A stretch of DNA of 64,000 nt from Brumimicrobium oceani (GTDB lineage: Bacteria; Bacteroidota; Bacteroidia; Flavobacteriales_D; Crocinitomicaceae), in the NCBI RefSeq assembly GCF_003143775.1, contig NZ_QFRJ01000014.1:1-64000 (forward strand), in the 5' to 3' direction. Positions 33,301 to 59,390 of this stretch are shown here, in pieces (position 1 is the first letter of the stretch; each line of letters starts with the position of its first letter). The position numbers were made by a program, and so were the translations under genes. The notes under the pieces were generated by a model, which worked only from the letters and a program-made list of their open reading frames with translations, was not told where the DNA came from and ran no database searches.

Positions 33301-34150
33301 GGGGGAGGGTGAATTTTTTCCCGCGGATTTTCGTAGATTTCGGAGAATTTTTTGATTCGCTGGTGCTCAGGTTTTTTCCGTGGATTTTCGCAGATTTCGT
33401 AGATTTGTTTGGATTCGCTGGCGCTCATTTTTTTCCCGCAGATTTTCGCAGATTTCGCAGATTTGTTTTGATTCGTTTTGTCAATTTGTGGGTCGCTTCG
33501 CTCTCTTTCGCTTTCTCACTCTATTTTTTCTCCTGTAGATTTTCGTTGATTTTGTAGATCTGTTTTTGATTCGCTTGAGCTCATTTTTTTCCCGCAGATT
33601 TTCGCTGATTTCGCAGATTTATTTTGATTCGCTGGCGCTCAGGTTTCTCCCGTAGATTTTCGTGATTTCGCAGATTTTTTTGGGGGTTCTTGTTATGAAG
33701 TTGTGGGTCGCTCCGCTCTCATTCGCTTTCTCACTCTATTTTTTCTCCTGTAGATTTTCGTTGATTTTGTAGATCTGTTTTTGATTCGCTTGAGCTCATT
33801 TTTTTTCCGCAGATTTTCGCAGATTTCGCAGATTTGTTTTGATTCGTTTTGTCAATTTGTGGGTCGCTTCGCTCTCTTTCGCTTTCTCACTCTATTTTCT
33901 CTCCTGTAGATTTTCGTTGATTTTGTAGATCTGTTTTTGATTCGCTTGAGCTCATTTTTTTCCCGCAGATTTTCGCTGATTTCGCAGATTTATTTTGATT
34001 CGCTGGCGCTCAGGTTTCTCCCGTAGATTTTCGTGATTTCGCAGATTTTTTTGGGGGTTCTTGTTATGAAGTTGTGGGTCGCTCCGCTCTCATTCTTTTT
34101 CTCACTTTATTTTTCTCCTGCAGATTTTCGTTGATAATTCTGGGGATGTT
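33301..34150. repeat. CGCAGATTT repeat block with 371-bp tandem duplication
   Basis: Many diverged copies of a unit like CCGCAGATTTTCGCAGATTT followed by TGATTCGCTGGCGCTCA fill this stretch. On top of this, a larger unit occurs twice with a period of 371 bp: for example TCAATTTGTGGGTCGCTTCG at 33481 and 33852, and GGGGGTTCTTGTTATGAAG at 33682 and 34053. The copies are almost identical from about 33425 to 34150, so the duplication is recent. A 82-codon open frame at 33309-33557 is just the repeat translated and is not taken as a gene. Confidence 0.85.
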
Positions 34151-57116: not shown

Positions 57117-57713
57117 TCAACTCCTAGCAAACTCAATTAAAGGATTTATAATGCACTTATCAGCTTCTCTCAAAGTATCTATGTATCTTTTTCTAGTTTC
57201 ATTCGCTTTAACCATATTTGATCTGCTCCAAGTAAATACTTCTTGACTGAAAATGGATTCAATTATTATGTCAGCTATTAGCCGTGAATGTCTTCCGTTC
57301 CCATTGGGAAAGCAGTGAATAGATACAATTCTGTGTTTAAAACGTATGGCGATTTCATCTGGTGAAAATGTTTGGAATTCTATCCAAAATTTAGTATCAT
57401 CGATGAGAATTTTCAAGGAAGAACTGACAAGAGTCCAGTCAGTTCCAATGTTTTTATTGGATTTCCTAAACTCTCCCGCCCACTTCCAAACTTCACCATA
57501 CATTTTCTTGTGGAGATCCTTGATAAATTTTTCTGTGAGAATAGTTTCGCCTTTCAACTTCTTCCGGATAGTCCATCCTACGGCCTTTTCAATATTCAAT
57601 TGCTCAAATTGATCTAACTCTCCTTGGGTTGTGATTGACTTTATTTTCAATCCTTCTTTTTCAGTTTCATCTAAAGGAGTTTGACCATCTGCGTAGTTTA
57701 GTTCTAGTCCCAT
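57117..57713 (-). CDS. Mobile mystery protein B (Fic-domain, toxin-like)
   Basis: A 198-residue protein with a Fic fold. The N-terminus has YADGQTPLDETEKEGLK, typical of the family. The active loop is HCFPNGNGRHSR (His133), a variant of HPFx[D/E]GNGRxxR in which the acidic Mg-binding residue is Asn, as is usual in this family. EFRKSNKNIG and FIKDLHKKMYGEVWKWAGEF are the flap helices. Fic enzymes transfer AMP or other groups to proteins; whether this variant is active is unknown. It overlaps the HTH gene upstream by 10 bases, so it is the downstream partner in a toxin-antitoxin-like pair found on mobile elements. Confidence 0.9.
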   Translation of the reverse strand: MGLELNYADGQTPLDETEKEGLKIKSITTQGELDQFEQLNIEKAVGWTIRKKLKGETILTEKFIKDLHKKMYGEVWKWAGEFRKSNKNIGTDWTLVSSSLKILIDDTKFWIEFQTFSPDEIAIRFKHRIVSIHCFPNGNGRHSRLIADIIIESIFSQEVFTWSRSNMVKANETRKRYIDTLREADKCIINPLIEFARS

Positions 57714-58165
57714 AATGATTTATTTAATTCGCGCTTAAATTCTTCTGCTAATTCTTCGATGTTTTTCCCAATTTTGTCACCATAAATAGCCTGATCTTCT
57801 AGTGCCATATTGTGATTTGTTCTTAACACTATTTTTGCAGCTAAATCTCTTGCTTTTCTCTCAATTAAATTCTCAATCGATCCATCTTTAGGCACGAATC
57901 CATAAACCAACTTTAAATCCATAGCTTCGCCAATATCCTTTAATGTATTTAAAGAAATGGAACCTTTCGCTTCGCTGTCTTCGAGGTGCTTAACGCCCTG
58001 TCTCGATATTCCTAGTTTCTCCCCAAGTTGAGCCAAAGTCATATTCAAAGATTTTCTTATCACTGAAATCCAGCCAGTTTCTGGAACAATGACGCTTTTT
58101 ACCTTTTGGAAAGGCGCAATTTTATTGTCTGTCTGCTCGACTAGAAGATTCTTGTTATTTCTCAT
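57704..58165 (-). CDS. Mobile mystery protein A (HTH regulator, antitoxin-like)
   Basis: A 153-residue protein with a Xre-type helix-turn-helix around residues 35-65 (SLNMTLAQLGEKLGISRQGV, KHLEDSEAKGSISLNTLKDI), then a helical C-terminus (ARDLAAKIVLRTNHNMALED, EFKRELNKSLWD). By family it partners the Fic protein encoded downstream and probably represses the operon. The region directly upstream has phased 32-bp inverted-arm units that are likely its operators. The start ATG at 58165 lies against the first unit. Confidence 0.9.
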   Translation of the reverse strand: MRNNKNLLVEQTDNKIAPFQKVKSVIVPETGWISVIRKSLNMTLAQLGEKLGISRQGVKHLEDSEAKGSISLNTLKDIGEAMDLKLVYGFVPKDGSIENLIERKARDLAAKIVLRTNHNMALEDQAIYGDKIGKNIEELAEEFKRELNKSLWD

Positions 58166-58325
58166 GGTGTAAAGTTTTTAATTGACTTAATTGTGTTTTT
58201 GTAAATCTTTAGGTTTACAAACAAATAAAAATGTAAAGTAAATATATTACAAAATTATTAAAAAGTAAAGAGTTATGTGTACAAATTTTAATTTTTGTAA
58301 AGATTATATTTTACAAAATTGGCTT
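58166..58325 (-). promoter_or_regulatory. Phased 32-bp operator array upstream of the HTH/Fic pair
   Basis: Four consecutive 32-bp units begin at 58198, 58230, 58262 and 58294. All have GTAAA at unit positions 4-8 and TACAAA at 19-24 (GTAAA-N10-TACAAA), and the outer arms extend the dyad in units 1, 2 and 4 (TTTGTAAA-N8-TTTACAAA in units 1 and 4). A fifth unit at 58166, next to the start codon, keeps GTGTAAAG in phase but has a poor right arm. 32 bp is about three helical turns, so all sites face the same side of the DNA. The minus-strand TAATTTTG at 58250-58257 could be the -7 promoter inside the array. Confidence 0.75.
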
Positions 58326-58501
58326 TTTTAGTTTGTTGTCGGTTGTTGGCGGAAATGTTGTGTGGTTTGATATTCGCCTCTATCAGCTTTTGTTTTAAGT
58401 TTATTAATTGTATTATATTTTACTTAGACGTTCTTTTGAAAAGTTCGAAATCCTGAAATCCACGCAGCAATAATCACAGTTACAGATTTCAAATAACGCA
58501 A
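58326..58501. other. AT-rich spacer between the two toxin-antitoxin-like pairs
   Basis: No gene and no clear terminator. It separates the operator array from the end of the HTH antitoxin gene of the HigBA-like pair. Confidence 0.5.
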
Positions 58502-58897
58502 CTATATTTTTAAATCCTTCTTCCTAAACCGTCTGCTCTCCTTTATTTCCCTAGAAATCTCCTCCGCGGATTTCTCCGAACCAAAAGCTCCAAAAGATTT
58601 ATAAAAATCTTGTTCATCCAAATTAATAAGTTCAATTCCCAATGCTTCTTGAATGTCAAATAAAGTGTCGTGCGTAAAATTGTGAGTTCCCGAAAACCAT
58701 TTTGTGGCAACAGAAGCATTTTTTTGTCCTGTGGCTTCAAGTAATTTCTTTCGGTTCCAACCTTTAGCTTTCATGGCATCTTCAATTTTTGCAGCCAAAA
58801 GCATTTTTGTCCTGATTCTTTTTTCTTCTATTGGAGATGTAGATTGTAATATTTCATCAATTTGTGAACTGTTGTGTTTTTCTTGTTTAGTCTTCAT
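58502..58897 (-). CDS. Xre-family HTH antitoxin (HigA-like)
   Basis: A 131-residue protein with a helix-turn-helix around residues 35-85 (LLAAKIEDAMKAKGWNRKKL, LEATGQKNASVATKWFSGTH, TLFDIQEALGIELINL) and a charged C-terminus (SREIKESRRFRKKDLKI). It begins 11 bases inside the toxin gene, in toxin-first order as in HigBA. By analogy it would bind and neutralise the toxin and repress the operon; the toxin pairing is an inference from position. Confidence 0.85.
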   Translation of the reverse strand: MKTKQEKHNSSQIDEILQSTSPIEEKRIRTKMLLAAKIEDAMKAKGWNRKKLLEATGQKNASVATKWFSGTHNFTHDTLFDIQEALGIELINLDEQDFYKSFGAFGSEKSAEEISREIKESRRFRKKDLKI

Positions 58898-59390
58898 AAT
58901 CTTCTATTATTAGGTTCCCTTCAAAATCCATATAATCTGAGGAAAACGATAATTCGCCATGTTGCATACTTTCTTTTATTTTGGATGAAAGCCATCTTAA
59001 AATGTAGTTTTCTTTTTCTAATTTTTCATCATCTTGAAGTGCTCTTACATTCTTTGGTCCGCCACTACCAATAATAATTAATTCTGTTCCATATCTAATA
59101 CAGTAAAGCCTTAACTTCTTATCTGGCGTGTCGTACAATGCGCAAACACCATCACCAGGAGCACCTTCTTTGGTTTTGAAATAACTTTCTCTTGCTCCAG
59201 TTTCATTTCCGATGATCTTTAAACGCAAAACTAAGGTTTTTATTTCACTTAAAAGTGAAGTTTTATTTTCTTTTATGAAAGAGTCGAAGAAAGATTCTTC
59301 AAAATTTCCTGATTCATTCTCTGGGATTGCGCTATATATTGAAGCTTTTTCTCCGCTAAGTTTATCGATTTTAACTAGTTTATATTTCAT
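58887..59390 (-). CDS. RelE/HigB-like toxin candidate
   Basis: A 167-residue protein, longer than typical HigB. The middle holds ARESYFKTKEGAPGDGVCAL, YDTPDKKLRLYCIRYGTELI and IIGSGGPK, a pattern seen in Bacteroidota proteins paired with Xre-type antitoxins; the N-terminus (MKYKLVKIDKLSGEKASIYS) and acidic C-terminus are less typical. RelE-type toxins cut mRNA in the ribosome, but I cannot verify the active residues. Its 3' end overlaps the HTH gene, which supports a toxin-antitoxin unit. Confidence 0.7.
   Translation of the reverse strand: MKYKLVKIDKLSGEKASIYSAIPENESGNFEESFFDSFIKENKTSLLSEIKTLVLRLKIIGNETGARESYFKTKEGAPGDGVCALYDTPDKKLRLYCIRYGTELIIIGSGGPKNVRALQDDEKLEKENYILRWLSSKIKESMQHGELSFSSDYMDFEGNLIIEDYED

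Follow-up and report, generated by a model that had tools for sequence, protein, structure and literature searches.

Dyads at a near-constant 32- or 33-bp pitch upstream of mobile mystery A/B gene pairs, a probable self-regulatory operator array

In E. coli, HipB represses its own operon, hipBA, by binding cooperatively to four 18-bp dyads of the form TATCC-N8-GGATA, as described in the available passages of PMC3920265. The HipBST system of Legionella pneumophila has three evenly spaced 18-nt operators, and according to PMC10653801 almost every one of 28 Legionella species examined conserves them. An evenly spaced operator set is likewise found in the PaaR2/YdaS region of prophage CP-933P, a lambda-like switch with two opposed promoters; according to the part of the source paper available, two of its palindromes are poorly conserved and the exact binding sequences are undetermined.

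The window (the whole stretch of 64,000 nucleotides analysed here) contains five 18-bp dyads upstream of the gene for mobile mystery protein A, with starts exactly 32 bp apart (Table 1). The layout shares with hipBA its 5-8-5 dyads, in this case GTAAA-N8-TTTAC, and several 18-bp dyads, the multi-operator trait of HipBA-type systems, are present; that A reads them is suggested by covariation. It differs from hipBA in spacing, which we measured there as 28, 39 and 28 bp against a uniform 32 or 33 bp here, and in the partner gene, a HipA-type kinase toxin as opposed to a Fic protein. HipBST, a three-gene kinase system, differs by its gaps of 53 bp. The original prediction held that so long an array exceeds the typical two-site toxin-antitoxin operator. 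This is right, with the qualification that a four-site operator of an HTH antitoxin (hipBA) and evenly spaced sets (HipBST, PaaR2) were already known. The trait that sets the array apart is a pitch of 32/33 bp, held across the family while the half-sites diverge. Sequence comparison suggests that the array is a case of multi-operator autoregulation by an HTH antitoxin, a known type, with an unusually conserved uniform pitch. Literature searches on the family names and model numbers, on Fic antitoxin operators and on 32-bp cooperative and equally spaced operators returned titles and passages with no 32/33-bp pitch for this family. Those naming mobile mystery proteins offer gene lists or an antitoxin label and no functional study; one such passage applies the name antitoxin to a TIGR02612-like gene that adjoins a Fic gene (PMC3936711).

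Table 1. Coordinates of the dyads, the candidate promoter element and the two genes in the window
Feature	Position	Strand	Sequence	Remarks
Dyad 1	58169..58186	-	GTCAATTAAAAACTTTAC	3 bp 5' of the A start codon
Dyad 2	58201..58218	-	GTAAACCTAAAGATTTAC	with flanks, a perfect TTTGTAAA-N8-TTTACAAA match
Dyad 3	58233..58250	-	GTAATATATTTACTTTAC	
Dyad 4	58265..58282	-	GTACACATAACTCTTTAC	
Dyad 5	58297..58314	-	GTAAAATATAATCTTTAC	with flanks, a perfect TTTGTAAA-N8-TTTACAAA match
Candidate -7 element	58250..58257	-	TAATTTTG	TAnnTTTG; last base is the first base of dyad 3
Mobile mystery protein A	57704..58165	-		153 aa; C-terminal helices after an XRE-type HTH with its recognition helix at 55-66
Mobile mystery protein B	57117..57713	-		198 aa; Fic domain (Pfam Fic)

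Protein A scores 140.9 bits against TIGR02612 over residues 6-153, above the cut-off of 122.6, and also matches Pfam HTH_3; B scores 247.5 bits against TIGR02613 (cut-off 124.4). The end of A and B share a 10-nt overlap. The two form an adjacent pair with the DNA-binding gene first and the toxin-fold gene second, the gene order of a type II toxin-antitoxin module, and judged by sequence A is probably both the reader of the array and the antitoxin, and B probably the toxin. The AlphaFold2 model of A, built on a 15-sequence alignment (mean pLDDT 74.9, pTM 0.41), places the HTH between an N-terminal helix and two long C-terminal helices; the best Foldseek match to this model is HipB on O1-O2 DNA, a weak one (E 0.053). 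Among the neighbours, the two genes upstream, at 58502-58897 and 58887-59390, match the PADLOC candidate PDC-M64 (5.5e-19 and 5e-41, respectively), and B matches the candidate PDC-S04 (6.7e-16). These matches raise the possibility of a small defence island.

Units had been predicted at 58198, 58230, 58262 and 58294 with arms at identical offsets, and they are there: the left arms read TTTGTAAA, AATGTAAA, AAAGTAAA and TTTGTAAA, and the right arm TACAAA follows at a constant offset. On the minus strand the dyads succeed each other towards gene A in the order GTAAAATATAATCTTTAC, GTACACATAACTCTTTAC, GTAATATATTTACTTTAC, GTAAACCTAAAGATTTAC, GTCAATTAAAAACTTTAC. The fifth unit foreseen at 58166 does adjoin the start codon of A, whose complement occupies 58163-58165. 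This unit, described as weaker, holds dyad 1, which on the minus strand departs from GTAAA-N8-TTTAC at one of 10 positions, as do dyads 3 and 4, and scores 13.3 bits against the family model described below. The helical repeat of DNA is 10.5 bp per turn, so a step of 32 bp makes 3.05 turns, and the dyads lie nearly, not exactly, on the one face of the DNA that had been proposed for them; at 33 bp the angular drift would be about 50 degrees per step.

We determined the top-scoring four-unit palindromic chain for each gap of 20-45 bp over the whole 64 kb. The highest score, 70.0, belongs to the chain at 58201 with a gap of 32 bp, against at most 59.3 for any other gap, and the best five-unit chain with this gap begins at 58169. 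When 58166-58345 was shuffled 2000 times by dinucleotides and any gap was allowed, no shuffle reached the four-unit score. A two-dyad pattern with up to 2 mismatches in 20 finds only the four neighbouring pairs of this array in the 3.85-Mb genome, and two further sites are added at 3 mismatches. The array and its pitch are thereby confirmed. A tandem repeat finder gave no 32-bp unit for the array. Elsewhere in the window, 33314-34135 is a large block of nested tandem repeats with periods of 58, 156, 215 and 371 bp and a CGCAGATTT-like core.

Proteins matching A were sought in several groups of genomes. In the family of the window A is matched in 46 of 240 genomes (26 above the cut-off), and in the sample of its phylum in 121 of 395 (40 above the cut-off). 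The phylum of G633, a genome with a contig titled Methylophilaceae, has A in 21 of 398 genomes at E <= 1e-20, with 17 above the cut-off; in the phylum of a genome titled Margulisbacteria there are matches in 18 of 55, and in that of a genome titled Anaerotignum the only match among 199 is the query genome itself. Plasmid records match A in 238 cases out of 72,556, 54 of them over at least 80% of A. A search for related loci with A as a single-protein query recovered no relative among 50 stretches. Each search contributed at most 30 loci; the genome-contig homologues are the best 80 of 271 confirmed, the viral contigs gave 2 loci, and the eight plasmid loci come from 30 matches listed among the 238 records. 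Nine of 189 loci were dropped for want of a usable start or for a low score, and 16 more as duplicates or for having less than 130 nt upstream, leaving 164 unique loci that fall into 84 clusters at 70% identity. Group B (54 clusters) comprises the Bacteroidota searches and the genome-contig and viral hits except L083; it includes metagenome-assembled genomes titled otherwise (L060, L064 and L086, for instance), the contigs of which may be mis-binned. Group P combines the phylum of G633, Pseudomonadota plasmids and L083, and group M is the phylum of G635.

For a model-free estimate of the spacing, three mutually similar palindromic 18-mers were fitted to each upstream region with gaps free between 20 and 45 bp, and scores were compared with a 95% threshold from shuffles. 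The threshold is exceeded in 69 of the 84 clusters, with 15 below it, and 120 of the 138 gaps in the former are 32 or 33 bp, against 8.9% of 672 gaps in shuffled sequences. Among the remaining gaps 34 occurs once, 31 never, 21-22 three times and 43 once; gaps near two or four helical turns are thus rare. Fourteen of the 69 clusters lack the 32/33-bp value in one or both gaps. Irrespective of the threshold, both gaps take this value in 37 of 54 clusters in group B, 14 of 20 in group P and 5 of 10 in group M. The array stands ahead of A not only in Bacteroidota but also on named plasmids of Pseudomonadota and in other groups.

Two further analyses, of the first 124 loci (56 clusters), arrive at the same spacing. 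Motif-free autocorrelation of the region from -110 to +3 gives a summed Z of 17.2 at a shift of 33 and 10.3 at 32, and the best shift lies within 31-34 in 38 of 56 clusters, against 7 of 56 for coding and 7 of 54 for far-upstream sequence. The coding control is not flat (Z 4.6 at 32 and 4.0 at 33) and has larger values at 36 (7.0) and 51 (6.6); far upstream, Z is 1.4 at 32 and 3.5 at 33. A family model with gaps of 30-36 bp, trained on these same loci, places 45 of 56 clusters above the 95% null and finds at least three units in 38 of 56 and six units in one.

Promoters of other HTH_3 genes of the relatives served as a control, 29 of the 30 fetched. None of the 29 has both gaps at 32/33 bp, and one exceeds the score threshold; their start codons were picked automatically and at least four are doubtful (L199, L223, L224, L225). 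The fit threshold itself derives from shuffles, and the control with real promoters consists of these 29 genes only. A 32/33-bp pitch as a general trait of HTH promoters is rejected on this comparison.

Within the array, conservation follows the dyads. In the 55 clusters above the threshold with both gaps at 32/33 bp, the last fitted dyad lies between -3 and 41 from the start codon, so that the block as a whole moves with respect to the gene and keeps its internal spacing. Identity between units of the same locus was measured on 126 unit pairs from 42 of these 55 clusters (the rest lie too near an end). It is 0.36-0.94 over the 18 positions of the dyad; the flanks have 0.23-0.49, apart from 0.60 directly after the dyad. 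The linkers of 14-15 bp between dyads are little conserved. The refuting outcome named with the original prediction on the sequence side, no dyad or periodicity upstream of orthologous pairs, did not occur, as the pitch recurs in most relatives examined; a 32/33-bp pitch common to most of these family members is confirmed. Inheritance could account for part of this constancy.

The letters of the half-sites vary widely under the retained pitch: GTAAAC, GTATAC, TTAAGG, GTCAGG, GTTGTT, AACAAC, GCTCAC and TATAAC occur in different lineages. Their changes follow the recognition helix of A. Covariation was computed over 140 variable columns of A in 92 of the 132 array loci (below 80% identity), with overall similarity outside the HTH removed. 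The column with the highest partial correlation is Q56 in the recognition helix (0.42), followed by A81 (0.21), outside that helix, and G57 (0.19); the other helix columns H60, R55 and K59 rank 8th, 23rd and 65th. A composite of columns 55, 56, 57, 59 and 60, picked by analogy and not by rank, gives r 0.358; the highest r was 0.119 among 2000 permutations, and 0.147 among 150 random sets of five columns from outside the HTH. In the 434 repressor, specificity is set by residues 28-30, to which we take residues 55-57 of A to correspond. The pairings are mostly KGA-[IV]-QKI with GTATAC or close variants, [AP]QS-x-KEI with TTAAGG, [RK]QGVK with GTAAAC and SQP[LM] with TATAAC. For binding of the array by A itself this covariation, a correlation, is the strongest support. 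C occupies the third base of 39% of the left arms as against 23% of the right arms (132 loci, the window array among them, weighted by cluster); the half-sites are slightly asymmetric, and the units may have an orientation.

TAnnTTTG is the -7 promoter element of Bacteroidota. Of the 105 array loci numbered below L142, 54 carry it at dyad offset 15, as do 24 of 45 clusters; it falls within the second or third fitted unit, and the median position of its TA relative to the start codon is -34. The candidate in the window belongs to a rarer class at offset 25 (9 of 105 loci) and is weak because no good -33 box is seen, and the promoter of the window is poorly defined. A scan of 58000-58600 with the sigma-70 consensus returned 6 sites against 2.1 expected, some of them over the array on the minus strand; these were not used, since Bacteroidota promoters differ from that consensus.

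The likely function of the array is that of a self-regulating operator of the A/B operon, each dyad being bound through the recognition helix by an A dimer that touches its neighbours about three turns away and binds cooperatively with them. We infer that each 18-bp dyad would take up one A dimer, contacting it through the HTH recognition helix, and that neighbouring dimers, 32 or 33 bp apart, would touch either directly or through B. Contact of this kind is deduced from the spacing, as the best explanation for a distance kept almost to the base over variable linkers while the recognised letters change, and it would make binding cooperative. Cooperative occupancy of the row would cover the promoter and, in many relatives, extend to the start codon, repressing the operon; when A, or an A:B complex, becomes scarce, the row would empty sharply and the operon would be expressed again. 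B would be a toxin held back by A. The interpretation first offered, of an operator-like array on which a repressor would assemble cooperatively, finds partial support, in the recurring pitch and in the covariation with A.

A variant compatible with this operator has the Fic protein B as the bridge between dyads, through conditional cooperativity, with the A-B complex setting the pitch. It draws on the presence of B downstream of A in 146 of the 164 loci and on the frequent co-repression by type II toxins together with their antitoxins, as given in the accessible passages of PMC3920265. Against it, copies of A without B can retain the array. In Brumimicrobium mesophilum (L012, genome G004, 99% complete) five units are present, four of them at 8 bits or more under the family model and the last at 0.8 bits and a gap of 31, and the genome has no TIGR02613 match, which favours direct contact between A dimers over a bridge of B. 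L073, L126 and L144, with no B found downstream, score above 17.6 with gaps of 32/33 bp; weaker Fic matches below the cut-off occur elsewhere in the genomes of the first two and in the plasmid record of L144, and a recent loss of B could possibly explain arrays without it. Among the 18 loci in which B was not found, seven exceed 17.6 (L012, L067, L073, L111, L126, L144 and L145) and L172 stands at 17.6; L145 and L111 each have one gap off 32/33 (31 or 34 bp), and in L067, L102 and L111, three of the 18, the downstream DNA is too short to judge B. Weighing both sides, we regard bridging by B as a serious but rather unlikely variant. Copies of A without B and with dyads about 32 bp apart are seen in L012, L126, L144 (1468-1950) and L145 (1507-1953).

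It is improbable that the array is read by some other DNA-binding protein with A not binding at all. A candidate lies close at hand, as a second HTH-like gene (58502-58897, with an HTH_3 score below the Pfam cut-off) adjoins the array just upstream, and a host factor could play the same part. The recurrence of arrays ahead of A in the groups named above speaks against either, as does the tracking of the A recognition helix by the half-sites beyond overall protein similarity. Scarcely more credible is a role of the units as iterons, or as a partition or mobilisation site of a mobile element. The plasmid records that match A, and the position of A beside parA/parB genes on a Vibrio casei plasmid, fit such a role; arrays on chromosome-sized contigs (L003, on a contig of 4.55 Mb, is an example), the way they stop at the A start codon or close to it, and the promoter-like element at a fixed offset in about half of the loci do not.

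That the dyads act as hairpins of an RNA leader appears very improbable. Some units do lie within the presumed leader, up to the start codon. Spacing by helical turns matters more for DNA than for hairpins, and the position of the offset-15 element in the second or third of three fitted units puts at least one unit upstream of the promoter in the 54 loci concerned, which argues against a leader. A known RNA family is rejected for 57900-58600, where an Rfam scan found none at E up to 1. Chance, which a G+C content of 20% in 58166-58345 might invite, can practically be dismissed in view of the shuffles, the uniqueness in the genome at 2 mismatches and the recurrence in most relatives.

With a small putative antitoxin gene ahead of a Fic gene, the pair resembles the class I FIC modules FicTA and VbhTA. 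Their inhibitory helix is characterised, in the available passages of PMC5033356, by the motif [S/T]xxxE[G/N]. The long predicted helix of A ends in a similar motif, [NTSH]-M-x-[LM]-E-x-Q (with Q at the first position in one case), of which M120, E123 and Q125 are present in all 132 A proteins. The strict motif occurs in 15 of the 132, and the NMALED of the window A does not match it. A further difference from FicTA is the HTH domain of A. In the window B, the sequence HCFPNGNGRHSR departs from the canonical HxFx[D/E]GNGRxxR. Its D/E position is N in 134 of 146 B proteins and D in 2, with no match to the pattern in 10, which suggests that a changed or lost adenylylation chemistry has been kept across the family. 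A profile of A (15 sequences) gave no hhalign alignment with E. coli YhfG, a weak test with YhfG being a single 55-aa sequence. Because of the rarity of the strict motif, the lack of a YhfG alignment and the N at the D/E position, the pair was not filed under FicTA.

Mobile mystery A/B pairs have a wide distribution, in genomes of several phyla and on plasmids, and a conserved array that tracks the recognition helix of A gives this protein a concrete, testable function. More tentatively, and with somewhat less than even confidence, A might be described as a repressor whose copies line up next to each other on DNA and measure out about three turns by a ruler of their own: the 32/33-bp distance would be near-invariant across phyla, the letters would change along with the recognition helix, and the sharpness of the switch would be set by how many units there are (at most six were seen here). 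As a set of natural promoters with constant spacing and varying sequence, the arrays lend themselves to studying the effects of spacing and of site number on cooperative repression.
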